Part shown: positions 985 to 62,481 of the stretch, piece after piece
Numbering within the stretch: position 1 is the first letter of the stretch
Layout: each line of letters starts with the position of its first letter
Source: Saprospiraceae bacterium
Lineage (GTDB): Bacteria; Bacteroidota; Bacteroidia; Chitinophagales; Saprospiraceae
Assembly (NCBI GenBank): GCA_958295895.1
Contig: CATQHI010000009.1
Location: 1-64,000 of the forward strand
DNA length: 64,000 bases
Direction of reading: 5' to 3'
The notes under the pieces: generated by a model
What the model was told of the DNA's origin: nothing
Database searches by the model: none
Seen by the model: only the letters and a program-made list of their open reading frames with translations
Translations under genes and position numbers: made by a program

Positions 985-1523
985 ATGACTGCTAACCGCC
1001 TGCTACTAACTCTTTTGCTCCTCTACCTACTTTGCACCTGCGGCCGCGCCCAGGATCAAGTTACTCCGGTGGTGCCCTACGGCGGCATCTACGCCATCCC
1101 CGAAGCGACGGTCACGCCGGACCCTACACTCGACTACCGCCTGGTGATCGACGTAATGAGCGGCCACGACAAGCCGGATAGCCTCGGACTGGGACTCTAT
1201 AACGTAGCACGGATGCTTAACCTGTTTCTGTAGGCGGGGTGCCGGACCAGCAGGTGGAGGTGGTGCTGGCCATCCACGGCGGGGCAACCTTCGGGGTGCT
1301 GACGGATGCGGCGTACCGGGAACGGTTCGGGACGGATAATCCGAATCTGCCGCTGCTACGGGCACTACGTAAGGCTGGGGTACGAGTGACGGTGTGCGGG
1401 CAGTCGCTGATCGGACGGGATCTGCCCCTTACGGCGGTTTCTGAGGAGGTGGAAGTGGCTACCTCGATGCTGACGACGGTGGCGATGTACCAGATGCGGG
1501 GGTATGGGGTGTTGCGGTTTTAA
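985..1523 (+). pseudogene. DsrE-family secreted protein, one frameshift
   Basis: The first frame (985-1233) encodes a signal peptide ending near CGRAQ, then a domain reading LDYRLVIDVMSGHDKPDSLG and LYNVARMLNLF, and stops. Shifting by one base near 1228 restores the expected continuation VGGVPDQQVEVVLAIHGGAT and runs to a stop at 1523. Together this is a complete DsrE/DsrF-like (YchN fold) protein of about 178 residues: VVLAIHGGA, LRKAGVRVTVCGQSL and the C-terminal TMLTTVAMYQMRGYG are typical. One missing base in the TTTCTG run would explain the break, so a sequencing error is as likely as a true null allele. An 18-bp dispersed motif overlaps the signal-peptide end. Confidence 0.7.
1034..1051 (+). 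repeat. Dispersed 18-bp motif, copy 1
   Basis: GCACCTGCGGCCGCGCCC, one mismatch from the consensus GCACCTGCGNCCCCGCCC. It lies in the signal-peptide end of the DsrE-like gene, read as CTCGRA. Confidence 0.6.
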
Positions 1524-1527
1524 ATAC

Positions 1528-1608
1528 AACCACAGAGGGCGCAGAGTTACGCAGAGGCACGTCACACATGCTAAAGCACCTCTGTGTTCCTCCGTGGCCT
1601 CTGTGGTT
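1528..1608 (+). repeat. CAGAG palindromic repeat, copy 1
   Basis: Inverted repeat with arms starting AACCACAGAGGGCGCAGAG and ending CCTCTGTGGTT, each arm itself built of CNCAGAG units. It begins 5 bases after the stop of the DsrE-like gene. The transcript would fold into a long imperfect hairpin; related copies follow at 5795 and 8466. Confidence 0.8.
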
Positions 1609-1669
1609 CAAAAACACCTACTCATAGTAACGTACCTTTAACAACCAGCAACAATAGCAATTCAGCACT

Positions 1670-3118: not shown

Positions 3119-3184
3119 AAGGTAGGGCCGTGACAAGCAACTTTTCGGTAGTAGTTTGGGGCACTCACTAAGCCAGCGCCTACC

Positions 3185-5794: not shown

Positions 5795-5862
5795 AACCGC
5801 AGAGGGCGCAGAGGTGTGGTAGTAGTGCTAGCCTCTGCGCGTCTCTGCGTTCTCTGCGGTTC
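5795..5862 (+). repeat. CAGAG palindromic repeat, copy 2
   Basis: Arms begin AACCGCAGAGGGCGCAGAGG and end with CTCTGCGGTT. The right arm carries one extra AACGCAGAGA-type unit, so the hairpin is asymmetric. It lies between the convergent madM and bshA genes. Confidence 0.8.
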
Positions 5863-7106: not shown

Positions 7107-8447
7107 ATGCCTACGACCATTACCCTGCTGCCCGCCGCCCACGAGGGGGCCTACGCCGATTCCGTCCTGCCCGGGAAGTACTTGCGTGATCCTACCGCCG
7201 CGCACTATATTGCCCGCCTTCCGGAAGACGCCGCACCCGCGTCCTCGCAAAATTTGGGCCGTACGTTGAGCTACGAGGCCGGCCAGCAACTCGAAACAGA
7301 AGTGACCATCGAGGCCCCAGACGTGGACCCAAACCTCACCACCGCCTTCATCGGGGGGCTCAAACTGGGCAGCTATTCGGCCGGCAGCCAGCGGGAGGAC
7401 TATAAACCACACCCCCTCCTCCACGGCACGATAAACTGGGCGGGCGGGGACGCAGGTGCGGAGTTGGTGGTGGCGGACGTACAGACGCGCATCATGGCCC
7501 TGGTCGACGCCCCGGCCAACCAAAAACGACCCCAGGACCTGGCCCGGTGGGCCACGGAGAGCGGCAGTACTTACGGCTACTCCGTCAAGGTGCTCGACAA
7601 AGAAGCCTGCCGGGAAGAGGGTCTGCACGCCCTGCTGGCCGTGAACCGCGGCAGCGAGGACCCGGCCGTCCTGATCGTCATGGAGTATCGTGGTGGGGCG
7701 ACCGACGACGATACTACGGCCATCATTGGTAAGGGCGTCACCTTCGACACCGGTGGGGTGAGCATCAAGGGCAGTCAGAACCTGCACCTGATGAAGTCCG
7801 ACATGGGCGGCGCGGCAGCCGTCTTCGGTACGATGGAAGCCGCCGCCCGCCTGCAACTACCCGTCAACCTGGTCGGTATCGTACCGGCTACCGACAACAG
7901 CGTCGACGCCCTGAGCATCAAGCCCAGCGACGTGATCCGGAGCCACGCCGGCAAGACCATCGAGATCATCGACACCGACGCCGAGGGCCGCCTCATCATG
8001 GCCGATGGCCTCAGCTACGCCGTGAAGTACTACCAGCCCACCACCCTGATCGACGTGGCTACCCTGACCGGCAGTGCGGTGCGCACCTTCGGCTACGTCT
8101 GCGCCGCTACCCTGAGTAAGAATGAGGAGTTGGTGGAGCAGTTCCGTCGCGCGGGGGAGGCCTCAGGTGAGCGCGTCTGGCCCCTCCCCCCCTGGGACGA
8201 CTTCGCCAAGGGACTGGCCAGCGATGTAGCTGACGTGAAAAACTTCAGCGGCACTCCCCTACACGGTGCTACCGATGCCTTTAAGTTCCTGGAACACTTC
8301 ACCCACGACCACGGGCGGTACATTCACTTTGACATTGCTGGGGTAGGGCTGAAGCAGGGGCCTTACGCTAAGGACCGGCAGGCTACGGGCTTTGGGGTGC
8401 GGTTGTTCCTAGCCTGGCTACAGCAGCAGACAGCTGACACTGTTTAG
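7107..8447 (+). CDS. M17 family leucyl aminopeptidase
   Basis: A 446-residue cytosolic metallo-aminopeptidase. The C-terminal catalytic domain shows the M17 metal-site series: KGVTFDTGGVSIKG near residue 210, MKSDMGGAAAV, and the family signature DTDAEGRLIMADGL near 290. The bicarbonate-site arginine sits in this last block. The N-terminal 150 residues form the variable macro-like domain. The open frame extends further upstream, but that part is antisense to bshA; ATG 7107 is chosen because family similarity starts there and a TACCTTCG box lies just before it. An 18-bp dispersed motif is embedded near residues 112-118 (GGDAGA), inside the variable domain. Confidence 0.92.
   Translation: MPTTITLLPAAHEGAYADSVLPGKYLRDPTAAHYIARLPEDAAPASSQNLGRTLSYEAGQQLETEVTIEAPDVDPNLTTAFIGGLKLGSYSAGSQREDYKPHPLLHGTINWAGGDAGAELVVADVQTRIMALVDAPANQKRPQDLARWATESGSTYGYSVKVLDKEACREEGLHALLAVNRGSEDPAVLIVMEYRGGATDDDTTAIIGKGVTFDTGGVSIKGSQNLHLMKSDMGGAAAVFGTMEAAARLQLPVNLVGIVPATDNSVDALSIKPSDVIRSHAGKTIEIIDTDAEGRLIMADGLSYAVKYYQPTTLIDVATLTGSAVRTFGYVCAATLSKNEELVEQFRRAGEASGERVWPLPPWDDFAKGLASDVADVKNFSGTPLHGATDAFKFLEHFTHDHGRYIHFDIAGVGLKQGPYAKDRQATGFGVRLFLAWLQQQTADTV
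7442..7459 (-). repeat. Dispersed 18-bp motif, copy 2
   Basis: The minus strand reads GCACCTGCGTCCCCGCCC. It sits inside the M17 aminopeptidase gene, opposite to its direction, and is read there as GGDAGA. Confidence 0.75.
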
Positions 8448-8465: not shown

Positions 8466-8539
8466 AACCGCAGAGGGCGCAGAGGACCGCAGAGACGTCT
8501 TCAGAAACACCTCTGCGACCCTCCGCGCCCTCTGTGGTT
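8466..8539 (+). repeat. CAGAG palindromic repeat, copy 3
   Basis: Inverted repeat with arms AACCGCAGAGGGCGCAGAGG and CCTCCGCGCCCTCTGTGGTT. It begins 18 bases after the stop of the aminopeptidase gene, the third copy of this family placed just after a stop codon. Confidence 0.82.
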
Positions 8540-8642
8540 AAATTCCAGTGCCGCCAGGCACAAAAGACACACCCACGACACTTTCGCTCAGGTAAATCGA
8601 ACAATTTGTTTTAAGTTGCTTTCTAGTTAAAAACAACCCACC

Positions 8643-18060: not shown

Positions 18061-19719
18061 TTACTCAATCTCAATGCCGGAGCCCATTCCATCCCGTAGT
18101 TCCTCCCCATCACCAGTCGGCGCGGGGAGGGGGTGGCGCAGGTAACCCACCGGGTAGAGCGTATCGAGATGGCGCAGGTAAAGCGAGTCGGTGGCCTCGA
18201 TCTGCAATTCACCGTACTGAAGGGGGCTGCCGATGTAAACGGATCCGGCGGGATACCGGTCGAACGCCCGGCGCACCACCCGCCCGTAGGCCTCGGTGAG
18301 GTAGTAGCCGGTGGCCGGTTCGATGAGGGTGTAGCGGTAGATGTGGAGGTCCTTACCCTGATTGGTACGTACGACGGACTGGGCCGTAGCACGTACGGCG
18401 ATACCCCGCTCATCCTCCACGGCGCGTACGGGCAGCACGAATAGATCGAACGTAAGGCGGAGTAGCAGGAGGAAGCAACAAAGGATCAGGAGGAAATTAG
18501 CGCGATCGCGCCAGCCCGCCACGACTAAGGCACCTGCGGCCCCGCCCACTGCTATACTCTTTGGCCAGGCGTAGGGGATGATCGTAGTCTGGGGGACGAG
18601 GGGCACGAAGGGCAGCAACACAGCCACCAGCGTCATGGTACCCAGCAGTAGGTAGCGGAGCCCCGTGTAGGTCGCACTCCGATCCCGCGCGTGGTACTGC
18701 TGCAGCCAGAGCAGGCTAGCAAATAGCAACGGAAACAGCATGAGTAGGTAGCGCGGATAGACGTTGGGAGAAACCCAGTACACGGGGATGTTAGCTAGAA
18801 AGGCGACTAAGCAGAATGCGGCGAAGTCACTGGTTTTGAGGAGCCGCCAACTACCGCGACGCAAGAGGTAGACCAGCAGCAGCGTCCAGGGCAGGAAGTG
18901 GTAGCTCATCGCGAAGGGGAAGGCCAGGATGTGCCCGATCGTCTCCCCCGCCCCGTGGGCTACGGCGGTGCGCTTACTGCTTTCGACGAAGAGGCGCCGG
19001 CCGACCGCGGTTAGATCGACGTACTGATGGTACTGCACGTAGTAGATGGCCAGCAGGGCCACGCAGCCCAGTCCGCTGAGCAAATGGGCCGGCCGGACGA
19101 GCTGCCACCAGGCCCGTCGCCAGCCCAGGATCGCGAATACGCTCAGGCCCTGGAAGACTACGGCGGGGAGCCCCTTGAGCATGAAGGCGACGGCGGTGAG
19201 CAGGTAGCTCCAGGCGAAGGCGTGCCACCAGCGACCGTCCTTCCCGTAGTGGTAGAGTAGCATGATCTGGGTGTAGACGACCCAGCTGAAGGTGACGTCG
19301 ATGAGCGCTAGCATGCTGTCCCAGAAGAGCATCCGCCCACAGGTGATGACCGTAAGGGCGTGGATGCTGGCCAGGTAACTACCGAAGTAGCGGCGGCTGA
19401 ATAGGTAGGTCGTGAGCGCAAAGCCAAGTAGGCTGATCACCGTCGGCAGTCGCGCGGCCCACTCGCTTGCCCCCCCGTGGAGGGTGAAGCTGGCGGCCAG
19501 GACCCAGTTCCACAGCGGTGGCTTGTTGAGGTAGGCATCGCCGTGCATGGCCGGGGCAATGTAGTTGCCCGACCAGCGCATCTCCTGGGCGACCAGGGAG
19601 CGGATGGCCTCGTCGTCGATGAAGACCATGAGGCCCAGATGGACCAGTAAGGCGGGAAAAAGCAGCCCCAGGGCAAGAATGTAGTACCACTTGCGCACTA
19701 GGGCGAAGGTAAGTCCCAT
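18061..19719 (-). CDS. GT39/ArnT-like polyprenyl-phosphate-sugar glycosyltransferase
   Basis: A 552-residue polytopic inner-membrane protein with roughly ten to twelve helices and a C-terminal periplasmic domain of about 150 residues. Near the N-terminus, after helix 1, lies the typical first-loop motif IDDEAIRSLVAQEMRWSGNYIAP and then DAYLNKPPLWNW, matching the ArnT/PMT acid and K-PPL motifs. It would move a sugar from a lipid carrier to an acceptor in the periplasm. It sits nine bases upstream of the GT2 gene in the same operon. An alternative ATG at 19761 adds 14 residues. The 18-bp motif lies within the last transmembrane part. Confidence 0.85.
   Translation of the reverse strand: MGLTFALVRKWYYILALGLLFPALLVHLGLMVFIDDEAIRSLVAQEMRWSGNYIAPAMHGDAYLNKPPLWNWVLAASFTLHGGASEWAARLPTVISLLGFALTTYLFSRRYFGSYLASIHALTVITCGRMLFWDSMLALIDVTFSWVVYTQIMLLYHYGKDGRWWHAFAWSYLLTAVAFMLKGLPAVVFQGLSVFAILGWRRAWWQLVRPAHLLSGLGCVALLAIYYVQYHQYVDLTAVGRRLFVESSKRTAVAHGAGETIGHILAFPFAMSYHFLPWTLLLVYLLRRGSWRLLKTSDFAAFCLVAFLANIPVYWVSPNVYPRYLLMLFPLLFASLLWLQQYHARDRSATYTGLRYLLLGTMTLVAVLLPFVPLVPQTTIIPYAWPKSIAVGGAAGALVVAGWRDRANFLLILCCFLLLLRLTFDLFVLPVRAVEDERGIAVRATAQSVVRTNQGKDLHIYRYTLIEPATGYYLTEAYGRVVRRAFDRYPAGSVYIGSPLQYGELQIEATDSLYLRHLDTLYPVGYLRHPLPAPTGDGEELRDGMGSGIEIE
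18530..18547 (+). repeat. Dispersed 18-bp motif, copy 3
   Basis: GCACCTGCGGCCCCGCCC, a perfect match to the consensus, lies antisense inside the GT39-like gene, where it is read as GGAAGA in a hydrophobic segment. Confidence 0.75.
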
Positions 19720-23407: not shown

Positions 23408-24589
23408 TCAAAGGTCCGACAAAAGTTGCTGGGCCTCGGCCTGGTAGGGATGGCCGGGGGAGTTAGCTAGTCGTTGCACCATGGTCCTTGCACCTGCGGC
23501 CCCGCCCTGAGCAAGTTGGGCCAGTGCACTGTACCACTCCGCAGCGTCCCGGTACGGGCTATCGGCTGCGATCTGTCTGAACCATTCGCGGGCCCGTTCG
23601 GGGTTGTCGAGCTCCAGGGCGGTCACGCCCAGGTAGAGCGGGGCGGCGGGGTAGGCATCGGCAGTGGGCAGCAGCTCGTCGTAGGCCGTGCGGTAGTCGC
23701 CGCGGTCGTAGTGGTAGAGGATACGCTGTAGGTCGCGCTCGTCGTCGGTCTGTGGGGGCTGGTCGGCAAAGATATTCGGGTAGGGTGCGAAGTAGCGGTC
23801 GTAGAGGGAGCCGGTCGAGGAGCCGCCGAAAGTGGTGTAGGCGAGGTAGAGGAAGACACCAAAAAGCAGGCCGGCTAGGAGGATGGCGGGGGAGGGTTTT
23901 TGGCGGGGTGCGTTATTGGATTGTTGCGTTGCGGGCGGGATAGATGTGGGAGGCGTGGTAGGTGTTGTAGGCATCTCAGGCGGCGGGGCCGCAGGTGCGG
24001 GGGACTTAGCAAGGGTGCTAAGTAGGTCTTTACGACCGGCTAGGGTAATGATGGCGGGCCAGTGGAGGGCGTGGTCGGGTTGGTAGGAGGCTGCGTCATC
24101 TGGGGTAGGGGCCCTAGATGTAAGCCGGGTGCGGCAGGCTTCAAGCTGATCGTGAAGGGTGGCTAGGTTGGGGGTGTCGAGGGCGCGGGCCAGGGCAGTG
24201 GGGGTGAGCTGGTGGTAGTCGGCCAGGAGCAGGAGCTGACGGCAGTCTTCGGGCAAGGCCTCGAAGCGAGCCAGGAGTTGCTGACCGGTGGCGTCGAGGG
24301 TGATGGTGCGCGGCAGGTGCTGGAGGGGGTCGTCACCGAGGGGGACCTCTTCGGCGGGACGGGACTGGCCGAAGTAGACGCCGGCTACCGTGGTAAGGTA
24401 ATCGAGGACGTCGCCACGGTACGGCCGCTCGGGGTCCATGCTAGTCTCGTACCAACCGACAAGGGCGCGGCGGTAGTTGTGGAGAGCAGTCGCTTCGGGG
24501 TAGTCGTGTTCGGCGGCCCAGTCCAGGTAGGCGGTGCGGTAGCTGCGGTAGTGGGCCAGCAGCTCGGCGAGGTGGCGACCGTCTTGCAT
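23408..24589 (-). CDS. Sigma-region-4-like protein with a transmembrane segment and TPR-like C-terminus
   Basis: 393 residues. The first 90 residues are polar and helical. Residues 105-150 (RFEALPEDCRQLLLLADYHQLTPTALARALDTPN) have the sequence rhythm of a sigma-70 region 4 helix-turn-helix. A Pro/Thr-rich linker (PPEMPTTPTTPPTSIPPAT) leads to one transmembrane helix near residue 235, and the periplasmic part contains tetratricopeptide-like helices (LYHYDRGDYRTAYDELLPTADAYPAAPLYLG). Comparable proteins are common near Bacteroidota signalling genes, but the function is unknown. It lies upstream of hisS on the same strand, with a 90-base gap. Two 18-bp motif copies sit inside it. Confidence 0.72.
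   Translation of the reverse strand: MQDGRHLAELLAHYRSYRTAYLDWAAEHDYPEATALHNYRRALVGWYETSMDPERPYRGDVLDYLTTVAGVYFGQSRPAEEVPLGDDPLQHLPRTITLDATGQQLLARFEALPEDCRQLLLLADYHQLTPTALARALDTPNLATLHDQLEACRTRLTSRAPTPDDAASYQPDHALHWPAIITLAGRKDLLSTLAKSPAPAAPPPEMPTTPTTPPTSIPPATQQSNNAPRQKPSPAILLAGLLFGVFLYLAYTTFGGSSTGSLYDRYFAPYPNIFADQPPQTDDERDLQRILYHYDRGDYRTAYDELLPTADAYPAAPLYLGVTALELDNPERAREWFRQIAADSPYRDAAEWYSALAQLAQGGAAGARTMVQRLANSPGHPYQAEAQQLLSDL
23490..23507 (+). repeat. Dispersed 18-bp motif, copy 4
   Basis: A perfect consensus match (N=G), antisense within the TPR-like C-terminus of the gene at 23408, read there as QGGAAGA. Confidence 0.75.
23981..23998 (-). repeat. Dispersed 18-bp motif, copy 5
   Basis: The minus strand reads GCACCTGCGGCCCCGCCG, one mismatch at the last base. 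It lies in the same gene as copy 4, but in the sense direction, read as APAAPP in the proline-rich linker. Confidence 0.7.
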
Positions 24590-40447: not shown

Positions 40448-42753
40448 TTGAGTTGGCTGCCGATCTGCTGACCGTCGGACAGGGAGGTAATGGGTTCGGG
40501 GAGGTACTGGAGGTTTTCGGTCACGTAGGGCTCGCCGTTATCGAGTAGCTCGGTGCCACCGGAGAAGACGCAGTCGGTGAGGGAAACGACCGGGTCGCCG
40601 ACCACGAGGTGCAGGCGCACGGGGGCTGAATCGTCGAAGATGCAGTTGGTGATCGTCACTTCCTGGGTGCCGTAGAGGCTTACGGAGCTTTCCGATTTGT
40701 TCCACTTGGCGTCGGTGCCCACCTCGTCGAAGGTGCAGCGGTCGATGGTCAGCATGGGGCCGAAGGTGCTCTCGTCGCTGCCGCCCCGGTGTAGGTGGAG
40801 CGCTGCCTGCCCGATGCCGTCGAAGTCGCAGTTTTCAATCACCACGTTCTCGGCGTTGTAGATGCCGATGTCGTCGTTCTCCTCGGCGAGGGGCAGTACG
40901 CTGCCGCTGATGTTGGTAAAGGTGGAGTTGCGCACCACGATCGAGTCGGCAAAGGTGTGCTTAGCTACCCGCAGTACGTTGAAGCTGTGGTTGATGTCGA
41001 GGTCGGTGAAGTCGCAGTCCTCGATGATCAGCCGGTAGTTATCGACCATAGAGTAACGGCTGGTACGGATCACGCTGTTGAGCGGCTGATCGAGGCACTC
41101 GCGGCCGTCTACCCGTACGCCCCGAAGGGTGAGCCCGCCGCCGTTCTCGATGTTGATGAGCGACGTTTTTTGGAACAGCAGTACGGGCTTTTCCCCTCCG
41201 GCAGCCATGATGGTGAGTGGGTGGCGCAGGTCGATGGCCTTGGTTTGTAAATATTCACCGGCGGAAAGCTGGATAATGTCGCCGGGTTCGGATTCAGCGA
41301 TGGCGTCCGACAGGGTGTTCTCGCCGGGTGCGGCGACGATGGTCTTGCCGGTGCCGAAAGACTGCCCCTCTTCGTGAACCGGGTACCAGTCGACGCCGCA
41401 ATTCTCCGGGGTGGCGCGGGCTTCCATGCGGGCACGGATACTGTCAGCAGCCGGGGTCCCCTCCGGCAGCATGATGCCATCGCCGGCGTCGGTCAGGGTG
41501 ATAGGTTCTTTTACGAAGCCCTTTTCCTGGAGGGGTTCCAGGTTCTGGTCCAGCAGGTTATTGCGGAAGGTGATACCGCTCATGTCATCGTACACGGTGA
41601 AGAGCTCACTGCGGTCCTTATTCACGAAGACGTTATCGGCCACCAGGGTATTCTCGGGTACCGCGCTGCGTTCTTCATCGCTTCCGGCCCCCAGTTGTAT
41701 GTGGTCGCAGTTGACGAACACATTGTCACTGGCCTCCGAGTCCTTCACCTGGAAGTAGCGGTTGATCGGGGAATTTGGCACCCCGTTCATGATCACCAGG
41801 GCACCGCGGAAGCGGTAGCCGGTCAGGCCCGAGAGGTAGTTGTTGGTCACCCGCTGCCGCTCGTTGATGATGCGGATGCCGCCGGTGTTGGGCTTGCCGT
41901 TGCCGAAGAAGAAGTTGCCGTCGACCGTCGTGCCGTTGCCGTGCCGCATGGTCAGCGTACCCTGGCATTCGTGGAAGGTGTTGCCGGTGAAGACGTTACC
42001 GCCCGATTTATTGGAGATGATCTCGTGTTCGCCGTTGCAGCGGTCGAAATAGTTGCTCTCCACTCGCGTATTCGAGTTACTCAGCGAATAGTGGCTGGTG
42101 CCGATACGCAGCGTCTCCCCACCGTTGGAGCCCAGGATGGGGTGCTCGCCGAAGTAGTTGTGGTCGATGAGGTGGCCGTTCTCGCGGCTTTCTTCCGTAT
42201 CCAGGCGTACGGCTACGGTCACGCCCTGGTTGCGCTTGCCGGTCAGGTAGTTGTGGTCGAAGCGGTTGTCGCGGCCGTAGATGCCCACCCAGTAGTCGCT
42301 CTCGTAGCGCTCGACGGGGTTGTAGTTGTCAATCACGCACTCGGTCACGCGGCAGTGGTTACAGAGGGAATCGTTGGTGGTCCGGAAGCTGATCACTTCG
42401 CTCGTCGGCGTGTAGCCGTTGCGGAAGACCAGCCCTTCGACGACGAGGTATTCACCGGCCATGCGGAGGTAGGATTGCCCCTCCAAAAAGACCTTTCCTT
42501 TTTCCTCCGCGACCAGCTTGATGGGGGCTTCCGCCGTGCCGGTTCCGGTGAAATCCAGGGCCAGGTCGGTATAGGTACCGCTGCTCAGCACGATCTCGTC
42601 GCCCGGCTCAGCCTTGGCGATAGCCTCGGCAATGCTCTCCGGGGTGTCGGTTTGTCCGTCCGGCGCGCCGCAGCTTCCTAATAGGAACAAAACGAGGCAG
42701 GCACACAAATAGGCGGGCGGGGACGCAGGTGCAGTGAAGTGGAAAAAGCGCAT
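40444..42753 (-). CDS. PL6-type alginate lyase, two-domain lipoprotein
   Basis: 769 residues: lipoprotein signal (LLGSC, Cys near residue 28) followed by two parallel beta-helix domains. The first has the PL6 core: NGYTPTSEVISFR, HNYFGEHPILGSNGGETLRIG, NGEHEIISNKSGGNVFTGNTF and LTMRHGNGTTVDGNFFFGNG. The Lys of SNKS and Arg of MRHG are at the positions of the catalytic K/R pair of the chondroitinase-B/alginate lyase family. The second domain (from about residue 480) repeats the beta-helix without these residues, as in two-domain PL6 subfamily 1 enzymes. It heads the PL operon and should be anchored in a membrane, cutting alginate or its oligomers. Confidence 0.88.
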   Translation of the reverse strand: MRFFHFTAPASPPAYLCACLVLFLLGSCGAPDGQTDTPESIAEAIAKAEPGDEIVLSSGTYTDLALDFTGTGTAEAPIKLVAEEKGKVFLEGQSYLRMAGEYLVVEGLVFRNGYTPTSEVISFRTTNDSLCNHCRVTECVIDNYNPVERYESDYWVGIYGRDNRFDHNYLTGKRNQGVTVAVRLDTEESRENGHLIDHNYFGEHPILGSNGGETLRIGTSHYSLSNSNTRVESNYFDRCNGEHEIISNKSGGNVFTGNTFHECQGTLTMRHGNGTTVDGNFFFGNGKPNTGGIRIINERQRVTNNYLSGLTGYRFRGALVIMNGVPNSPINRYFQVKDSEASDNVFVNCDHIQLGAGSDEERSAVPENTLVADNVFVNKDRSELFTVYDDMSGITFRNNLLDQNLEPLQEKGFVKEPITLTDAGDGIMLPEGTPAADSIRARMEARATPENCGVDWYPVHEEGQSFGTGKTIVAAPGENTLSDAIAESEPGDIIQLSAGEYLQTKAIDLRHPLTIMAAGGEKPVLLFQKTSLINIENGGGLTLRGVRVDGRECLDQPLNSVIRTSRYSMVDNYRLIIEDCDFTDLDINHSFNVLRVAKHTFADSIVVRNSTFTNISGSVLPLAEENDDIGIYNAENVVIENCDFDGIGQAALHLHRGGSDESTFGPMLTIDRCTFDEVGTDAKWNKSESSVSLYGTQEVTITNCIFDDSAPVRLHLVVGDPVVSLTDCVFSGGTELLDNGEPYVTENLQYLPEPITSLSDGQQIGSQLK
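42715..42732 (-). repeat. Dispersed 18-bp motif, copy 7
   Basis: The minus strand reads GCACCTGCGTCCCCGCCC, in the sense direction of the PL6 gene. It codes APASPP inside the N-terminal part of the signal peptide, where it is unlikely to be needed. Confidence 0.75.
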
Positions 42754-42919: not shown

Positions 42920-43627
42920 TTACTTGCCGCGTAGCGTATCGCTGAATTTCGCTACGTCGCCCAGGTGCCTGAGCATGGCTTCCTGTGCCGCCACCGCGTC
43001 CTGCTTACGGATGTGGTGGAGGATCTCCTTATGTTCGTCGTAGGCCTTCTGGTTAGTGCGCGTATTGCACACCCGGTAGGTGTTGTAACTGTTGATGATG
43101 TCGGGCGTGATCACCATCAGGAAAGACTTCAGGACGCCGTTCTTACTGGCGTCGGCAATGCTCAGGTGGAAGAGCAGGTCTTCCTCGACGGCCGGTGTGC
43201 CGGTGGCTACCTTGTCTTCGTAGGCGGCCAGTGCCTGCTCCATCAGTACTAGGTCGTCGGCCGTGCGGCGTTCGGCGGCGAGCCGTACGCCCTGTACCTC
43301 GAGCATGACGCGGGTCTCCACCAGGGAGGCAAAGTCGTTTTCTTCGAGTTGTAGCACATCGGTGATCAGCCCTTCGAGGGCATTGATGCCCATACCGGCT
43401 ACGACCGTACCGCTCTGGGGCAGGGTACGCAGGATACCATAGAATTCGAGCTTCTGTAGAGCATCCCGTACGTGACCGCGGCTTACACCCAATTTATCCG
43501 CCATCTTTCGTTCCGACGGTAGCCGGTCGCCGGGCGCCAACTGCCCGGAGGTGATCAGCGCGCGGAGTTGGCGGATGATGACATCCACCGGGCTCTCTAC
43601 CTTGATTTCGCTGAAGTTTTCTAGCAT
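42920..43627 (-). CDS. FadR-subfamily GntR transcriptional regulator of the alginate locus
   Basis: A 235-residue regulator: winged helix-turn-helix in residues 10-75 (SGQLAPGDRLPSERKMADKLGVSRGHVRDALQKLEFYGIL), then an FCD ligand-binding domain (ETRVMLEVQGVRLAAERR, HLSIADASKNGVL, YDEHKEILHHIRKQDAVAAQEAM) with the conserved His/Asp positions for metal and effector. Family knowledge: FadR-type proteins bind TGGTNNACCA-like palindromes and are released by sugar acids. The operator pair at 43682 lies 55 bases upstream of its own start, so it is probably autoregulated, with KDG or DEH a likely inducer. Confidence 0.88.
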   Translation of the reverse strand: MLENFSEIKVESPVDVIIRQLRALITSGQLAPGDRLPSERKMADKLGVSRGHVRDALQKLEFYGILRTLPQSGTVVAGMGINALEGLITDVLQLEENDFASLVETRVMLEVQGVRLAAERRTADDLVLMEQALAAYEDKVATGTPAVEEDLLFHLSIADASKNGVLKSFLMVITPDIINSYNTYRVCNTRTNQKAYDEHKEILHHIRKQDAVAAQEAMLRHLGDVAKFSDTLRGK

Positions 43628-43677
43628 GATGACAAAAGTTGGGCCGGGGTAAGCGGTCAGGTCAAAGTTAGGGTTTT

Positions 43678-43710
43678 AAAATTGGTTGACCAAATTTTGG
43701 TCAACCAATT
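43678..43710. promoter_or_regulatory. Paired GntR-type operator upstream of gntR
   Basis: A 33-base near-perfect palindrome: arms AAATTGGTTGACCAAA and TTTGGTCAACCAATTT around one central T. It contains two TGGTNNACCA cores with centres 15 bases apart, 55 bases before the gntR start. Confidence 0.78.
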
Positions 43711-43846: not shown

Positions 43847-43915
43847 AGGTCTGGCGGATAATCACATCCACCGGGCTCTCTACACTGATCTCGCTAAAAC
43901 TCTCTAACGCGCTTA
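43847..43915 (-). pseudogene. Fragment of a second gntR gene (5' end)
   Basis: The minus strand codes LESFSEISVESPVDVIIRQ, nearly identical to LENFSEIKVESPVDVIIRQ at the start of the intact GntR, and then loses homology. An operator pair lies about 50 bases upstream, at the same distance as for the intact gene. The start codon is no longer ATG in frame. Confidence 0.7.
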
Positions 43916-43961
43916 TGGTATTGACCTGTTTATCTGGGGAGTGTGACAAATATAGGACGCA

Positions 43962-43996
43962 AAGATTGGTTAACCAAATTTTGGTTGACCAATCTT
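43962..43996. promoter_or_regulatory. Paired GntR-type operator upstream of the gntR fragment and sulfatase
   Basis: A 35-base palindrome (arms AAGATTGGTTAACCAAA and TTTGGTTGACCAATCTT, one mismatch) with two TGGTNNACCA cores spaced 15 bases. With the gntR fragment dead, the remaining function would be on the plus strand, about 180 bases before the sulfatase. Confidence 0.75.
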
Positions 43997-44068: not shown

Positions 44069-44086
44069 GCACCTGCGGCCCCGCCC
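44069..44086 (+). repeat. Dispersed 18-bp motif, copy 8
   Basis: A perfect consensus match (N=G), intergenic, about 87 bases before the sulfatase start. Confidence 0.75.
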
Positions 44087-46369: not shown

Positions 46370-47908
46370 ATGCTCCCGAAATTACCCATCGGCCAACAAG
46401 ACTTTCGCGGTATCCGCGAGGAGAGCGCGTTATACGTCGATAAGACGGAGCACATTTATCGACTGGTAACGGGAGGCAAGTACTTTTTCCTGGCCCGCCC
46501 GCGTCGCTTCGGCAAGTCACTAACCCTATCCACCATCAATGAGCTGTTCAACGGAAGTCGGGAGCTGTTCGAGGGACTCTGGATCGACGAGCACTGGGAC
46601 TGGAGCCGCACAAACCCGGTCGTACATATTGGCTTCAGCCGCCTAGGCTACCAGGAGATCGGCCTAGAACGCGCCATCCTACGGGAGCTGGATATGCAGG
46701 CGGAACGCTTCGGCCTCGAGCTAGTCGGCGAGGGCGTCAGCTTCCGCTTTCAGGAACTACTGATCAAACTAAACGCCAAGCTAGGCCGGGTGGTGGTCCT
46801 GATCGATGAGTACGACAAGCCACTAATTGACTACCTATCGAAGGAGGAACTTCCCCGCGCCTTCGAGCACCAGCGCCTACTAAAGACCTTCTACAGCATC
46901 CTAAAGGACAACGACGCGCAACTCCGCTTCCTATTGATCACGGGGGTCAGCAAGTTCAGCAAGGTCGGGGTATTCTCGGACCTCAATAATCTGCTAGATA
47001 TTAGTCTGTCCGCTACCCACGCCACCCTGGTGGGCATTACCGAGCAGGAACTGGAGCAGCACTTCGGACAGGCCATCGACGACCGGGAGCAGCAAATCGG
47101 AGCGCAGGGCCTAAGGGACAAAATCCGCGAGTGGTACAACGGCTACTCCTTCTCCGATGGAACGCACAAAGTATATAACCCCTTCTCCCTACTGGGCTAC
47201 TTCAGCAGCTGGTTCTTCCGTAACTTCTGGTTCACCACCGGCACCCCCACCTTTCTCGTCGACCTCACGCGGGAACGCTACTACTTTCAGTTCGAGCAGC
47301 AGGAAGTCTCCCCCTCCGCCTTCGAGTCCTACCAACTGGACCGCCTGGAAACTACCCCCCTCCTCTTCCAGACCGGCTACCTCACCATCAAGGCCTACGA
47401 CCCCGAGTTCAACCTCTACACCCTCGACTACCCCAACCGCGAGGTAAAGGACAGCATGCTCCAGTACCTCATCGCTGCCTTCAGCCACAGCAGCCCGGAT
47501 CAGACCACCCCCGCCGTAGTCCGCCTCACCAAAGCCTTCCGCCGCGGCGACCTCGACGACGTCCGCGACCTGATCAACAGCCTCTTCCAGACCATCCCCC
47601 ATCAGCTCTTCGTCGCCGCCAAGGAAAACCTCTACCACGCCCTCATCCACCTGCTGTTCACCTACCTGGGTCAGTACATCACTTCGGAGGTGAGCGTCCT
47701 GCGCGGCCGGGTAGACGCCGTAGTGCAGACCGCCACCCACGTCTACATCCTGGAGTTTAAACTAGATGGCAGCGCCGAGGAAGCCCTAGCTCAAATCAAG
47801 GAACGGGATTATGCTACCGCTTACCGCGCTACGGGGAAGGAGGTGGTGGCTGTGGGGGTTAACTTTAGTAGTGTGGAGAAGCGGGTTGTGGGGTGGGTAG
47901 TGGAGTGA
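46370..47908 (+). CDS. AAA-ATPase-like / PD-(D/E)XK nuclease family protein
   Basis: 512 residues. The N-terminal AAA-like domain (PF09820 type) opens with LPIGQQDFRGIREESALYVDKTEHIYRLV, has the Walker A-like FLARPRRFGKSLTLSTI, the Walker B-like RVVVLIDEYDKPLIDYL near residue 145, and SKVGVFSDLNNLLDISL. The C-terminal DUF1703 domain (PF08011) carries the PD-(D/E)XK-like VDAVVQTATHVYILEFKLDGSAEEAL. These are abundant, often multi-copy genes of Bacteroidota thought to be mobile or defence-related, with no proven role. A group of AAATTATACTT repeats follows the stop. Confidence 0.88.
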   Translation: MLPKLPIGQQDFRGIREESALYVDKTEHIYRLVTGGKYFFLARPRRFGKSLTLSTINELFNGSRELFEGLWIDEHWDWSRTNPVVHIGFSRLGYQEIGLERAILRELDMQAERFGLELVGEGVSFRFQELLIKLNAKLGRVVVLIDEYDKPLIDYLSKEELPRAFEHQRLLKTFYSILKDNDAQLRFLLITGVSKFSKVGVFSDLNNLLDISLSATHATLVGITEQELEQHFGQAIDDREQQIGAQGLRDKIREWYNGYSFSDGTHKVYNPFSLLGYFSSWFFRNFWFTTGTPTFLVDLTRERYYFQFEQQEVSPSAFESYQLDRLETTPLLFQTGYLTIKAYDPEFNLYTLDYPNREVKDSMLQYLIAAFSHSSPDQTTPAVVRLTKAFRRGDLDDVRDLINSLFQTIPHQLFVAAKENLYHALIHLLFTYLGQYITSEVSVLRGRVDAVVQTATHVYILEFKLDGSAEEALAQIKERDYATAYRATGKEVVAVGVNFSSVEKRVVGWVVE

Positions 47909-47916: not shown

Positions 47917-47934
47917 GGGCGGGGCCGCAGGTGC
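47917..47934 (-). repeat. Dispersed 18-bp motif, copy 9
   Basis: The minus strand is a perfect consensus match (N=G). It is intergenic, eight bases after the AAA-ATPase stop. Confidence 0.75.
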
Positions 47935-47938: not shown

Positions 47939-48042
47939 CAAATTATACTTTGAGGGCAAGAAATATAAAGTCAGCCGCGAAATTATACTTGCGTATAAAC
48001 TCAACCACGACTTTATACTTTCAGGGCCTAAAGTATAATTTG
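47939..48042 (+). repeat. AAATTATACTT repeat cluster
   Basis: AAATTATACTT occurs directly at 47940 and 47980 (40 bases apart) and inverted at 48031. Outer arms (about 47939-47973 and 48010-48042) form a roughly 33-bp imperfect inverted repeat including ATAAAGTC and GGGC blocks. It is AT-rich in GC-rich surroundings, between the AAA-ATPase gene and the IS3 element. Confidence 0.7.
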
Positions 48043-54286: not shown

Positions 54287-55444
54287 CTACACGCGCCGCC
54301 CCCGCCGCCCCACCCACACCGCACCAGCGACCCCGCCCACCATAAACCCCACCGCAATCAGCTGCGCCTGCGTCAAACTCACCCCCAGTACGTCATACTG
54401 ATCGTTCACCCGCACGTACTCGATAAAGAAGCGCTCCACGCCGTTGAGGAACAGGTAGATGCTGAAGAGTAGGCCCGGGTACACCGTCAGCCGCTTGCGC
54501 AGGCCCCACAGGATGCCCCCAATCGCAAAGGCCATCATAGTCTCGTAAAACGGCGTCGGGTAGTGCAGCTCCGCCAGCCGACTACAGTATTCGACGGTGC
54601 AGCCGGGGATGGCCTCGCCCTGGTGGAGGACGTTATGGGGGTAGTCGAAGCCGTACATCCAATCAGGGAGGAACCAGCTTTCGGGGATGCCGTTTGGGAT
54701 GGCCACGCCCCAGTCACCGTCGCCGCTGAGCTGACAGCCGATGCGCCCCACCCCGTAGGCGACGATGAGGGCCGGGGCCACCGCGTCCATGACCGGCAGA
54801 ATGGGGATCTTATGCTTGCGCAGGTAGAGGTAGACGGCCACGCCCCCGCCGATGAGGCCGCCGTAGATGGCCAGCCCGCCGCCGCTGAGAAGCTCCCGGA
54901 GGGGATTAGCGAGGAAACGGTCCCAGTACTCGATGACGGCGAAGAGCTTTGCGCCCAGCAGCCCGCCGATGGCCGCCCGCATGGTGATGGGTCCCACGCG
55001 CTGGCTGGGATATACGTCGACCGGCACCGGATCGGGCACCGCACCCTGCTTACGGGCAATGTTGTAGTAGTAGCCCACGAGTAAGGCGGCTCCCAATAAA
55101 CCAGTCAGCAAGTAACCGTCGGTAGACAGCAGCACCCCGCTCGGATCGCGCTGCCAGGCGGCGAAGTTGGCCACGGCGTAGGGCAACTTGTAGCCCAGCA
55201 GGAAGCCGAGGATGCCGTTGGTGATGTAGTCGGCCGTAGTGACGGTGTAGCCGGGGACCTGGAGGGTCTTGGTGGGGGGCAGCTGTCCGATGCGCTCGCG
55301 GCGCTGCAGCTCCCACTTCAGCAACCGGGCCGCCGTAAGGAAGGCCAGGAGTAGGAACAGCCCGAAGGTCTTGACGATGCTGAAGGCATTGTCGCGCGCA
55401 GTTCCCAGCAGGGCGTGCAGGAGGTAGGACAGGTCCGGGTACAT
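54287..55444 (-). CDS. lgt: Prolipoprotein diacylglyceryl transferase
   Basis: A 385-residue, seven-helix inner-membrane enzyme. Motifs: SGGGLAIYGGLIGGGVAVYLY (Lgt HGGL region with Ser/Tyr replacing His), GVGRIGCQLSGDGDWG (catalytic Arg block) and YPTPFYETMM near residue 300. It transfers diacylglyceryl from phosphatidylglycerol to the lipobox Cys of prolipoproteins such as the DUF4249, SusD, PL6 and sulfatase proteins in this window. It is longer than E. coli Lgt (291), with extra N-terminal residues as in other Bacteroidota. It is the last gene of the yidD-thioredoxin-lgt group. Confidence 0.92.
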   Translation of the reverse strand: MYPDLSYLLHALLGTARDNAFSIVKTFGLFLLLAFLTAARLLKWELQRRERIGQLPPTKTLQVPGYTVTTADYITNGILGFLLGYKLPYAVANFAAWQRDPSGVLLSTDGYLLTGLLGAALLVGYYYNIARKQGAVPDPVPVDVYPSQRVGPITMRAAIGGLLGAKLFAVIEYWDRFLANPLRELLSGGGLAIYGGLIGGGVAVYLYLRKHKIPILPVMDAVAPALIVAYGVGRIGCQLSGDGDWGVAIPNGIPESWFLPDWMYGFDYPHNVLHQGEAIPGCTVEYCSRLAELHYPTPFYETMMAFAIGGILWGLRKRLTVYPGLLFSIYLFLNGVERFFIEYVRVNDQYDVLGVSLTQAQLIAVGFMVGGVAGAVWVGRRGRRV

Positions 55445-55465: not shown

Positions 55466-56647
55466 CTACTTGGTGGCGGCCCGCAGCTCGTCGACCAGCC
55501 CCTGTACGGCGCGGCGGTAGTTGGCGGGGCCGTCGGCCAGGGCAGTGAGGGATTGCTCGGCGGCCTTCAACGCCTGCTCCGGACGCTTACGCTCTTGTAG
55601 ATAGCGGGCCAACTGGTAGTAGTCGCGCCAGCCATCTTCGGCCCGGGCGGCGGCGGCGGAGAGGGCTTCGGCGGCCAGGTCGGTGGCCTCTTTATAGTCC
55701 TTGAAGGAGGATTCGGTGATGGCGGCAAAGGCTCCGCGCAGGCGTCCAACGTCATCGGCAGCGCCCTTCTTCAGGTAACTTTTCGTGGCCTTTACGAAGT
55801 CCTTGTAGTCATTACCCTGTAGTGCCATTGCAAATTCCCCCTCCGATTCCAGCCGGTTGGCTTCGTCCTTGTCGATGAGGGCCTGTTTGTCCACCGCCGC
55901 AGCTAGCAGGTCCGCACTTCGGTACTCCAGGCCCTTATCGAAGGTGGTGCGTACCGCCCGTTGTAGTTGCGTTTCCACGGCTTCGGCCCCTTCGAGGGTG
56001 GCTACGGCCTCGCGGTGTTCCAGCAGCAGGTCAAACAGTCGGCTGTCCGCCTCCGTCGTAGCGAGGAAGAGCAGGCGGAGGGTCGCAGGTGCAGTGAAGT
56101 CGGTGCTGGGCCGACGCAGGTAGTCGTTGGCGACGCGCAGGTGTGACTCCCCGGCGCGAATGAGTGCCCGTACGTACTTGAAGGTCGCCTCGTCGGTGGG
56201 ATCGGTTTCGTAGTCGGCCCGTAGCTCGTCGAGGTCCTTTTCGGAGCGGGACAGGGCAGCACCAGCCTCCCGGATCAGCTGCTCCGACTGCCGGGCCCCG
56301 ATCAACCGATGCACTACCTCGTTCTCCGCGTTGATAAAGAGTAGCGTCGGGTAGGCAGAGGCCGTATGCCACTGACGGAAGTCCTCCGACTCGGCCTTTT
56401 CCATATTGTACTTCACGCTGATGAAGTTGGCGTTGAAGTACTCCCCCACCTCCGCATCCGGGAACACACGGGCCGACATCATCTTACAGGGGCCGCACCA
56501 TTCGGCGTAGGCGTCCACGAAGATGAGTTTGTCCTCGGCTTCGGCTTTTTCTAGTGCCTCGGACCAGCTACCGTGGAAGAAGTCGATGCCCTGAGCGGCC
56601 AGGGAGGTAGAAAGCAGGCAGAAAAGTAGCACACGTAGCATAATCAT
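55466..56647 (-). CDS. Secreted thioredoxin-like protein with helical C-terminal domain
   Basis: 393 residues: signal peptide ([17 protein letters not shown]), thioredoxin fold in residues 25-135 with the redox motif WCGPCKM, then about 250 residues of TPR-like helices ([33 protein letters not shown]-type repeats). It is exported to the periplasm and could reduce or isomerise disulfides there. It overlaps yidD by four bases (ATGA). Part of the 18-bp motif, degenerate, is at 56083-56098. Confidence 0.82.
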
Positions 56648-59927: not shown

Positions 59928-60015
59928 ACCAGCCAGAAGTTTGCATAATTTACGTTGGTTTGTTTCTTAGGGGAGTTATCTTTTACAACGGTCTCAACTT
60001 CTCGGCCGCCGAGGG

Positions 60016-61434
60016 TCAGTACTCAAACTCCAGCTTCTCGGCCGGATACCCAAACAAACAATCCTGCTTTACCAGCTTAGCCACCCGCTCGGGCACCATC
60101 TTCTCCCAGCCATCCTCCCCGGCCCGGATCATGGCCAGGACCTTGCGGGAGTAAATGTGCAAATTCTCCGCCTTGTACTCCTCGATGTCGACGATCTGTC
60201 CGCTATCCAGTAGGTGGCGGTACAGGAATTTGACGCCCTCGGGGATGGGCACGTTCTCGGCCGTCATCAGGTCCGCACTTCCCTCCTGCTGGGCGGGGTA
60301 GACATACAGTTTGACGTTACGCGTGAATATCTCTCCGAAGGCCGCCAGCAACCGCCCGTCCTGGTTGGCGTAGTACTTGTCGCTGATGAGCTGCAGCAGG
60401 TCGTTCACGCCCACCACGATCCCCAGCGGCGAGACCTTATACAGCGACAGGTACTCAATCAGGTCCCCGTAGCGGTGGTAGTTACTGATGATTACGGTCT
60501 GGCCCAGTGCATTAAGCAGCGTGGCCCGGTGCAGGTAGTCGCGCTCGTTGAGCTCGGAGTTGCCCTGTAGGTTATCCAGCGTTAGCTCCGTGAGCAGAAA
60601 GCTCTTTGAGGGGTCGATGTGCTCTTCGGAGCGAAACTTTTTGTAGCCCGCCTCCAGCATATCGGCGTTGACCAGCGTCGTGGGCCGGTAGCTGCCCCGC
60701 ACCACCATCACGGCCTTCCGGTACAGGAACTCGCTGGGATGAATACTCCGGCCCCGGGGGTCAAACATGGTGATATCGGTGAGCCCGTGCTTCACTAACC
60801 AGAGGCTCAGCAGTCGGTTATCTACCGCAAAGTCCGGTCCGCTCATCACCATCATGTCGATCGCGATACGGCCCTTGAGTCCGTCGAGCAGACTTTCCAC
60901 CAGCTCCTCCGGCGTGTCGTGCAGGTGGTAGGCGCCGTAGATCATATTCACGCCCAGTATCCCAATGGCCTGCTGCTGCAGCTGGTTGTCGTTGTCCAGC
61001 ATCCGGGCGTGCAGTAGCATATCGTTTGCCCCCCCGTTCGGCGTCAGCTGAAAGCGCAGTCCCAGCCAGCCATTCCCCCGGATCGTGCGCGTATAGTTGA
61101 TCGCCGCCACCGTATCGGCGAAGACAAAGAAGTTCGTATCCGGCCGGTCGTGCCGCAGCCGGTCCATCATCAGGTCATATTCGTGGTCCACCATTTTGTG
61201 GATGCGGCTCTCACACACGTAGCGCCCACTCGGCTCCGTCCCGTAGATCTGATCCGAGTACACCTTATCGTAGGCACTCATCGTCTTGGCGATCGTACCG
61301 GCCGCCGCCCCTACCTGAAAGAAGTGCCGCGCGACCTCCTGTCCGGCTCCGATCTCGGCGAAGGTGCCGTAGATGCGCGGATTCAGGTTGATTTCTAGGG
61401 CTTTCTGTTCGGTCTCTAATAATTGGCGGGCCAT
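60016..61434 (-). CDS. Conserved 472-residue protein, function unknown
   Basis: A soluble protein opening ALEINLNPRIYGTFAEIGAGQEVARHFFQVGAAAGTIAKTMSAYD, a very well conserved block. Later blocks include RLRHDRPDTNFFVFADTVAAINYT, GWLGLRFQLTPNGGANDMLLHARMLD, LGVNMIYGAYHL and GIVVGVNDLLQLISDKYY. Orthologues in Bacteroidota and cyanobacteria are often labelled TonB-dependent receptor or nicotinate-nucleotide adenylyltransferase; neither label fits, since there is no signal peptide, barrel or HxGH motif. It does not overlap other genes and lies near the carbamoyltransferase gene on the same strand. Confidence 0.75.
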   Translation of the reverse strand: MARQLLETEQKALEINLNPRIYGTFAEIGAGQEVARHFFQVGAAAGTIAKTMSAYDKVYSDQIYGTEPSGRYVCESRIHKMVDHEYDLMMDRLRHDRPDTNFFVFADTVAAINYTRTIRGNGWLGLRFQLTPNGGANDMLLHARMLDNDNQLQQQAIGILGVNMIYGAYHLHDTPEELVESLLDGLKGRIAIDMMVMSGPDFAVDNRLLSLWLVKHGLTDITMFDPRGRSIHPSEFLYRKAVMVVRGSYRPTTLVNADMLEAGYKKFRSEEHIDPSKSFLLTELTLDNLQGNSELNERDYLHRATLLNALGQTVIISNYHRYGDLIEYLSLYKVSPLGIVVGVNDLLQLISDKYYANQDGRLLAAFGEIFTRNVKLYVYPAQQEGSADLMTAENVPIPEGVKFLYRHLLDSGQIVDIEEYKAENLHIYSRKVLAMIRAGEDGWEKMVPERVAKLVKQDCLFGYPAEKLEFEY

Positions 61435-61533
61435 GGTGGATACGATTAGCTACGCTGATTATGCGCGGTTACAATGTACGATGTGCTCTTCAGACGAGCG
61501 AAGCGAGCAGAGCCGTAAATCGCATATCGAGTA

Positions 61534-62481
61534 TCACATATCGCATATCACCCCTTCCAGCACCGCCTGCGCCGCCCAGACCCGATTCCCCGCCTGCTCC
61601 AGCACCAGCGACCGCCCCCCATCCAGCACCCCGTCACTCACCACCACGTTGCGCCGCACCGGCAGGCAGTGCATAAAGTAGGCGTTGTTGGTCAGGGCCA
61701 TCTTCTCCTCGTCCACGATCCAGTCGGAGAGGTCGGCGGTAGCGCCGTAGTCATCGTAGCTCGACCAGTTCTTAGTGTATACGAAGTCGGCGTCGCGAAG
61801 GGCCTCCCGCTGGTTGTGTTGCACCTGCGCCCCCGCCCGGAACTCCTCGGCTAGATCAAAACCCTCGGGGTTAGCGATAACCAGGTCCACTTCTCCCCAG
61901 GCAAGCATCCACTCGGCAAAACTATTCGCCACAGCCTGCGGCAGGCGGCGGGGGTGGGGCGCCCAGGTCAGTACCACTTTGGGGCGGGTACGCAGGTGCT
62001 GAGAATGTTGTGCGATGGTCATACAGTCCGCCAGACTCTGCAGCGGGTGGCGGATGGCTGACTCCAGGCTCACGACCGGCACGGTGGCGTATTCGCGAAA
62101 GGCGTTGATGATGCGGTCCGCGTAGTCGGCCTCGCGGTCGGTCAGGCTAGGGAAGGCCCGGACGGCCAGCACGTCGCAGTACTGGCTTAAGACCCCGGCG
62201 GCCTCCCGCACGTGCTCGGCCTTGTCGAGGTTCATCACCGCCCCGTCCTCGAATTCGAGCTGCCAGCCGCCGGCCATGTCCATCGTGATGACCTGAAAAC
62301 CGAGCTGGTGGCCGGCCTTCTCAGTGCTGAGGCGAGTACGGAGGCTGGGGTTGAAGAAGAGGTTGATGAGGGTTTTTTGGTGGCCGGGTTGGGTGGTGAA
62401 GGGGTGTTGCTTGTAGTGCTGGGCGCGGTGGAGGAGGGCGGGGATGTCGGGGGCGTCGTGGACGGATACGAAGCTTTTCAT
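61534..62481 (-). CDS. argF': N-acyl-ornithine (acetyl/succinyl) carbamoyltransferase
   Basis: 315 residues. The carbamoyl-phosphate motif STRTR is replaced by FFNPSLRTR near residue 44, as in the Bacteroidota/Xanthomonas AOTCase/SOTCase group. HPLQSLADCMT and the C-terminal HCLPVRRNVVVSD follow, all diagnostic. It carbamoylates N-acetyl- or N-succinyl-ornithine in arginine synthesis. The acyl specificity cannot be read safely. A probable class III aminotransferase tail at 63910 could belong to the same pathway. An 18-bp motif lies near residues 217-222 (RAGAQVQ). Confidence 0.9.
   Translation of the reverse strand: MKSFVSVHDAPDIPALLHRAQHYKQHPFTTQPGHQKTLINLFFNPSLRTRLSTEKAGHQLGFQVITMDMAGGWQLEFEDGAVMNLDKAEHVREAAGVLSQYCDVLAVRAFPSLTDREADYADRIINAFREYATVPVVSLESAIRHPLQSLADCMTIAQHSQHLRTRPKVVLTWAPHPRRLPQAVANSFAEWMLAWGEVDLVIANPEGFDLAEEFRAGAQVQHNQREALRDADFVYTKNWSSYDDYGATADLSDWIVDEEKMALTNNAYFMHCLPVRRNVVVSDGVLDGGRSLVLEQAGNRVWAAQAVLEGVICDM
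61821..61838 (+). repeat. Dispersed 18-bp motif, copy 10
   Basis: GCACCTGCGCCCCCGCCC, with C at the variable base, antisense in the carbamoyltransferase gene and read there as RAGAQVQ. Confidence 0.75.

Follow-up and report, generated by a model that had tools for sequence, protein, structure and literature searches.

A dispersed 18-bp motif with species dialects and strand-wise spacing in Neolewinella, a candidate self-DNA recognition tag

In the first 64 kilobases (kb) of contig CATQHI010000009.1 from a Saprospiraceae bacterium (contig C9 of genome G000, 4.77 megabases in size; this whole stretch is called the window below), a motif of 18 base pairs (bp) recurs on both strands and within genes in different frames. 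An original prediction, made from these letters alone, took it for a recognised DNA site, uptake-like or connected with segregation or methylation, or else for a tiny mobile insert. Which of these is it? In this study I show that the motif is abundant throughout one genus of Bacteroidota, that its species carry dialects of it, and that copies on the same strand exclude each other over about 3 kb while copies on opposite strands do not. I argue that this pattern may reflect a tag by which DNA of the own kind is recognised.

The window holds 12 copies of the motif, seven of them perfect outside the one free position (N) and five with one mismatch. The ten copies reported in the original prediction are all at the right places and on the right strands (seven perfect outside N, three with one mismatch), but two one-mismatch copies, at 54321(+) and 61982(-), had been missed, so that the count of ten was too low. 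The claim that chance could not produce this abundance holds as well, as dinucleotide-shuffled versions of the window gave a mean of 0.03 copies at up to two mismatches (maximum one, 100 shuffles). At the level of three mismatches the window contains four matches vs. 1.3 for shuffled patterns. The degenerate copy that had been placed near 56083 is present as text at 56075-56092(-), but with three mismatches it is close to background and doubtful.

Genome-wide, GCACCTGCGNCCCCGCCC occurs in 315 perfect copies in G000 (143 on the plus and 172 on the minus strand) and a wider core in 625, compared with none in either case for the reversed pattern, so that the count lies above expectation. The genome groups with Neolewinella (Lewinellaceae, Saprospirales, Bacteroidota), and at least one perfect copy is found in 19 of the 60 genomes searched, G000 included, all of which belong to this one genus (19 of its 21 genomes). 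The 39 genomes of other genera contain no perfect copy, so that, judged by count alone, the text is not shared with distant genera. The core GCWCCYGCGNCMSCGCC occurs 243 to 1,214 times in 17 of the 21 genomes (controls 0-11), is scarce in G015 (99), G007 (35), G011 (4) and G001 (3), and reaches at most two copies per genome outside the genus (127 genomes). In a scan of public genomes, among the 80 matches listed of at least 95 matching stretches, at least 56 come from Neolewinella or Lewinella and at least 24 from others, among them Sphingomonas and Streptomyces, a single Hymenobacter and a Bacteroidia bin with three stretches. The DNA available from other genera, four stretches with lengths of 16-20 kb, is too short for judging dialects; in a calibration on 15 single stretches of this length, taken from species whose motif is known, only three had part of it among their top three 9-mers. 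Eight viral contigs also carry the 18-mer, with one or two core copies apiece; four of them (L367-L370, IMG/VR) stem from one metagenome and may be prophages of the group or bacterial DNA.

The site is bipartite and non-palindromic, about 20 bp long, and can be written as (CNYT)GCACCYGCG, a spacer, and CGCC. The upstream bases C-N-Y-T carry about 0.9 bit each in 59 perfect sites, and drop to 0.26, 0.31 and 0.07 bit in 847 looser ones. Perfect copies outnumber those with one mismatch in seven of ten patterns tested. Seven of ten patterns have two-mismatch copies at, or close to, the level of the reversed control, the exceptions being G007 (17 vs. 5), G019 (14 vs. 5) and G001 (9 vs. 0). In G013, for example, copies with zero, one and two mismatches number 46, 7 and 5, compared with 0, 0 and 4 for the reversed control.

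The species differ in the exact form of the site. Samples of 40-260 kb yielded the dialects of 15 of the 21 genomes; for G003, G008, G010 and G018 they come from counts only, and for G002 and G006 from the first listed places. The consensus is GCACCTGCGGCCCCGCCC in G000, GCTCCYGCGTCCCCGCCC in G004 (with A also frequent at base 3), GCACCTGCGGCCSCGCC in G005, GCACCYGCGGCAGCGCCC in G013 and GCACCYGCGWCCGCGCC in G019, and a T is frequent at base 3 in both G004 and G017. The four genomes with a scarce core might suggest loss of the motif, which is wrong, as all four carry other dialects: TTACCTGCGCTCCGCCGCC in G001, ACCYGCGCYCCGSCGCC in G007, GCACCTGCG followed by CGCC at four, five or six bases in G015, and CAYTGCTACTTTG-N1-2-AGYCAAAA in G011, the 20-mer of the most divergent congener. 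The G011 form occurs 1,189 times in its own genome (control 3) and at most seven times per genome in 147 others. Its core is preceded by C-A-Y-T, which hints at an architecture common to the dialects. Spacer length varies too. The half-sites [AT]CC[CT]GCG and CGCC[CA] peak at a spacer of four in 11 of 14 sampled species, at six in two, and at four to six in one (G016 and G020 have six sites each, and the reversed control gives 0-4 per spacer); the spacer-6 form occurs 458 times in G001, 287 times in G007 and 0-99 times in the other 19 genomes of the genus.

An unseeded test for over-represented 9-mers brought up a piece of the motif as the top string in nine of ten species (G000, G004, G009, G005, G013, G019, G015, G001 and G011). 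It did not show the motif in G007, for which the dialect rests on the sampled consensus, the genome count of the spacer-6 form and the half-site spacer profile. A tree of ComEC, with long branches for G011 and G015, joins G001 with G007, G004 with G017, G000 with G009 and G013 with G019. The spacer-6 form and the form with T at base 3 each fall on a supported sister pair of this tree (G001 and G007, G004 and G017), and the dialects appear consistent with descent. Other strings over-represented in these samples, TAGGCGGTA in G019, ATTTACAAT in G004 and GTCTGTTAG in G015, look like unrelated dispersed repeats.

How the copies arose can be read from orthologous DNA. Syntenic DNA around a conserved protease gene was available from eight near relatives, with shorter stretches from four others, and seven of the 12 window sites could be aligned (1034, 7442, 18530, 23490, 23981, 40336 and 42715). 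Many identical copies within one genus are what a tiny mobile insert of 18 bp would leave behind. However, at none of the seven aligned sites does any relative show an 18-base gap. At 7442, 18530, 40336 and 42715 the motif columns are free of gaps in every row, and contain variants such as GCACCCGCGACCCCGCCC, GCTCCCGCGTCCCCGCCC and GCACCTGCGGCCGCGCCC, or unrelated text. Gaps of 1 to 13 columns do occur in part of the rows at 1034, 23490 and 23981, where the sequence is poorly conserved. Graded base variants in place, together with the coexistence of spacers of four, five and six, leave next to no credence for the insert, and for the seven aligned sites a mobile mini-element is ruled out by the lack of any element-length gap. 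The motif copies at these sites were made in place by base changes. Between G000 and its sister species G009, 81 of the 84 constrained positions (12 at each of the seven sites, as defined by the spacer-4 dialects) are identical, compared with 860 of 1400 in the flanks of 100 bases on each side. In this comparison the sites had been chosen for their match in the window, so that only the relative's side was free to vary, and weak flanks may have led the aligner to favour the motif.

The most distinctive property of the motif is the arrangement of its copies. With one mismatch allowed, 147 neighbouring copies closer than 3 kb are on opposite strands and 23 on the same strand (58 vs. 8 for perfect copies only), whereas beyond 3 kb the numbers are 112 and 89 (65 and 47). 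Irrespective of distance, 259 of 371 neighbouring pairs lie on opposite strands, compared with 217 (standard deviation 8, maximum 242) in 2000 shuffles of the strands, and below 150 bp all 19 neighbours are inverted. The ratio of same-strand pairs to expectation rises in steps to 4 kb from 0.00 through 0.11, 0.12, 0.15 and 0.38 to 0.64, and then continues at 1.18, 0.91 and 0.95; summed below 3 kb, convergent pairs come to about 1.1 and divergent ones to about 1.05 times the expected number, with single bins ranging from 0.49 to 2.89. Limited to nine contiguous regions (100-200 kb each), same-strand ratios are 0.11, 0.17, 0.17, 0.40, 0.63, 1.06 and 0.88, and opposite-strand ratios 1.64, 0.76, 1.03, 0.83, 0.98, 1.07 and 1.06. 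Opposite pairs below 3 kb outnumber same-strand pairs in each of 15 species, several of which have few pairs. Thus same-strand copies exclude each other over about 3 kb and opposite-strand copies do not, and since only the same-strand pairs are depleted, each strand carries its own spaced series. The perfect copies of G000, taken over all distances, give 14 opposite and six same-strand neighbours on contig C1 and 22 and 25 on C2, without a clear bias.

Alternatively, this exclusion could be a by-product of recombination, in which direct repeats are deleted and inverted ones are kept, as it is indeed only the direct pairs that are missing. I regard this as distinctly improbable. The exclusion persists in G009, G019 and G011 (5 same vs. 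16 opposite, 5 vs. 18 and 1 vs. 15 pairs below 3 kb), although their copies differ at several bases or in the spacer, deletions with a reach of 3 kb would take out genes, and 360 random 8-mers of similar density show no such loss, with same-strand ratios from 1.76 to 0.93.

With respect to genes, the distribution is biased as well. Among 355 strict sites from 15 species, placed against mechanically called open reading frames (ORFs) of at least 100 amino acids that cover 90% of the DNA, 130 (37%) are intergenic, compared with roughly 10% of the DNA, 223 lie within ORFs and two partly so. All six frames are used (sense 43, 37 and 28; antisense 51, 19 and 45), 63 of the 223 sites lie in the first 120 bases of the ORF, and one copy in G000 coincides with a probable lipoprotein signal, read as LCTCAPAPP. 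Across the nine contiguous regions the two strands have nearly balanced counts, from 30:24 to 11:18, and no clear strand bias was seen there, the direction of replication in these regions not being known. With the same limit, no polarity along the replichore of the kind expected for segregation sites such as FtsK-orienting polar sequences (KOPS) was seen in the nine regions, and the suggested role in segregation is not borne out.

This balance also bears on a second explanation, a site of the Chi type, used by a repair enzyme that translocates along DNA one way and needs one site per few kb in each direction. For such a reader same-strand neighbours would be redundant and the two strands independent, and a one-way reader would give what is seen here, an exclusion of same-strand copies up to about 3 kb while convergent pairs and divergent pairs are each near expectation in sum. 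Chi sites, recognised by RecBCD or AddAB, are likewise directional and of similar density (79 in 300 kb of Escherichia coli). They are 5-8 bp long. Here a site of about 20 bp, with a changing spacer and with dialects, is unlike Chi, and the sites are enriched between genes. Furthermore, E. coli Chi is clearly skewed in four of six stretches of 50 kb, whereas the most skewed of the nine regions here stands at 11:18, and the same-strand depletion of Chi is weak, with ratios to 4 kb of 0.62, 0.62, 1.03, 0.64 and 0.91 for the 79 sites, not comparable to the exclusion seen here. A Chi-like site is therefore unlikely.

The motif could also be a mark for use inside the cell, a site that organises the chromosome through a nucleoid protein or labels it as self for a defence system, and that is kept by selection. 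The spread of the sites across the genome would suit such a role, as would their even spacing per strand, whose coefficient of variation is 0.70 when one mismatch is allowed and 1.22 when only perfect copies are counted. However, a change of dialect over hundreds of sites between related species is hard to picture for an internal house-keeping protein, and the near-control level of two-mismatch copies in most patterns is sharper than is usual for regulatory sites, following an argument in the available text of PMC1626085. I consider this mark unlikely, slightly more so than the Chi-like site.

A reading as a tag for self-DNA recognition in natural transformation, comparable to the DNA uptake sequences (DUS) of Neisseriaceae and the uptake signal sequences (USS) of Pasteurellaceae and read strand-specifically, I hold by comparison of traits to be fairly probable, and of the possibilities named in the original prediction the uptake-like recognised site is the best supported. 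A short non-palindromic motif with hundreds to thousands of copies on both strands, as in those systems, is present here. As far as the available text goes, USS and DUS are described as preferring non-coding DNA, as having no orientation bias, as oppositely oriented in close pairs, as varying in form within a family and as not having originated by insertion (PMC1626085), and DUS dialects as consistent with the species tree (PMC3630211). With DUS the present motif shares many copies on both strands, dialects and close inverted pairs, and with USS the origin in place, the non-coding preference and the lack of orientation bias; according to the accessible part of PMC1939737, 65% of Haemophilus influenzae USS lie within ORFs, vs. 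63% here. From this agreement in most of the described traits, biased uptake and a co-evolving receptor may be inferred. In such a mechanism a receptor at the cell surface or in the periplasm would bind the site, DNA that carries it would be imported by way of ComEC and recombined, this bias would raise the number of sites, and a change in the receptor would shift the dialect. From the spacing on each strand, recognition or the choice of the entering strand may be strand-specific and act on pieces of about 3 kb. Tags that worked in either orientation on double-stranded DNA would make opposite copies avoid each other too. They do not, and convergent copies lack the avoidance that a one-way tract would demand. 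A strand-specific step fits; it might consist in uptake of a single strand, or in a strand fate fixed by the tag.

Several observations weigh against a transformation tag. By core or own-dialect patterns the density is one site per 5-19 kb, compared with about one per kb published for USS, although a loose matrix gives one per 2-3 kb, about a tenth of which are chance hits in the larger samples. Copies with one mismatch outnumber perfect ones in three of the ten patterns, those of G019 (20 perfect, 32 with one mismatch), G009 (24 and 28) and G007 (12 and 24). Uptake by H. influenzae is reported to be independent of orientation in the accessible part of PMC1939737, and strand-wise exclusion is not among the traits given in the available descriptions of DUS and USS, the latter being characterised by somewhat regular spacing without mention of a strand rule in the published description used for comparison. 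The DUS is moreover a 10 bp core without flanking motifs (PMC1626085, available text), whereas the site here has about 20 bp in two halves with a spacer of 4-6. ComEC is present in all 21 genomes of the genus, but it is universal and not specific. No convincing ATPase of type IV pili (PF00437) was found in the 21 genomes, where partial hits of about 20-25 bits are the best; 11 genomes exceed the cut-off of 24.9 bits, but over about 83 of 370 positions and in ORFs of 943-1074 amino acids, and G010 (55% complete) has no hit at all, while the same search gave 410-423 bits in three other genomes. Finally, 20 of the 21 genomes lack the two uptake genes known from Riemerella, which encode a DUF5689 protein and a barrel, and no transformation of any Neolewinella was found.

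The lack of a convincing pilus ATPase sets the genus apart from Pasteurellaceae and Neisseriaceae, both of which use type IV pili according to the accessible part of PMC7811141, and the receptor is probably not a type IV pilin. In Riemerella, a member of the same phylum, the DUF5689 protein and the barrel are essential for transformation, which involves ComEC and an outer-membrane step unlike known machines in a model that is still speculative, and Riemerella columbina prefers its own DNA, its candidate uptake k-mers being A/T-rich (available text of PMC8459023 and PMC7965970, respectively). The DUF5689 protein is present in G011 and in 15 of the 16 other-genus genomes of the family searched. 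Its replacement in the remaining 20 genomes was discarded as a clue to the receptor, as G011 has a motif too, these 20 also lack the methyltransferase gene next to it, and a single event on the tree may be involved. A search by profile for a diverged barrel was equally set aside; the recurring hit of about 740 amino acids looks, by eye, like an ordinary TonB-dependent receptor. In the neighbourhoods of ComEC in 15 species nothing specific was seen. The barrel and the DUF5689 protein occur as a pair at L270, L287 (G011:C115) and L288-L291, and in four other genera the pair adjoins, as judged by eye, a divergent gene resembling secreted endonucleases or exonucleases.

In 2006 uptake sequences were known from Pasteurellaceae and Neisseriaceae and not elsewhere, by the available text of PMC1626085, and in a search mostly outside subscription journals I found no report of them in Lewinella or other Bacteroidota, besides the k-mers of PMC7965970. 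The 21 genomes of one Bacteroidota genus described here carry a signature like that of DUS and USS, with dialects, in a phylum for which the outer-membrane uptake model is speculative. I would tentatively go further, with somewhat less than an even chance, and propose a third, independent system of uptake tags, in Bacteroidota and without type IV pili, that would read one strand. Each strand would bear an evenly spaced set of bipartite tags of its own, imported DNA would be selected as single strands, or with a fixed strand fate, in pieces of about 3 kb, and spacer and half-sites would co-evolve with the receptor as a barrier between species. The map of dialects would offer a route to that receptor, as a protein whose specificity changes with the spacer and the half-site, and the same-strand exclusion, which was new to me, is a quantitative clue to how the tag may be read.

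Within the window 11 of the 12 copies lie in ORFs of at least 100 amino acids, the exception being 47917. The one-mismatch copy at 1034-1051(+) is covered by a doubtful, antisense ORF; its text in G009 is motif-like, and one alignment places a one-base gap in it where a second one matches 12 of 12 constrained bases. The perfect copy at 7442-7459(-) has equally perfect counterparts at this position in G009 and G017, is a variant in G004 (the GCTCCCGCGTCCCCGCCC mentioned above), and is replaced by unrelated text in G016, G007 and G001. At 18530-18547(+), also perfect, seven aligned relatives have variants in place, that of G001 being the weakest. The perfect copy at 23490-23507(+), with a one-base variant in G009 and otherwise poorly aligned rows, has a convergent partner 491 bp away in the one-mismatch copy at 23981-23998(-), which is degenerate in G009 and lies in gapped, variable text in other relatives. 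Variants in G009 and G004 are found both for the one-mismatch copy at 40336-40353(+) and for the perfect one at 42715-42732(-), near the start of the ORF at 40444-42753(-). A further perfect copy is at 44069-44086(+), and the one at 47917-47934(-), perfect as well, directly follows a gene for an AAA-ATPase/PDDEXK_9 protein (46370-47908, plus strand). The two copies added here, each with one mismatch, are at 54321-54338(+) and 61982-61999(-), the latter being the convergent partner, at 161 bp, of the perfect copy at 61821-61838(+).

The window contains several other repeats. A 34-bp inverted repeat (47939-47972 and 48009-48042) adjoins the motif copy at 47917, after the AAA-ATPase/PDDEXK_9 gene. 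Three copies of a paired inverted repeat, TTGGTTAACCAA / TTGGTCAACCAA, lie at 28643-28691, 43663-43709 and 43947-43993 and are possibly regulatory, and a 55-bp direct repeat (43569-43623 and 43852-43906) has halves that are 84% alike and 283 bp apart. Dispersed repeats of the AACCACAGAGGGCGCAGAG type occur in both orientations at 1528-1556, 5795-5823, 8466-8494 and 8510-8544.

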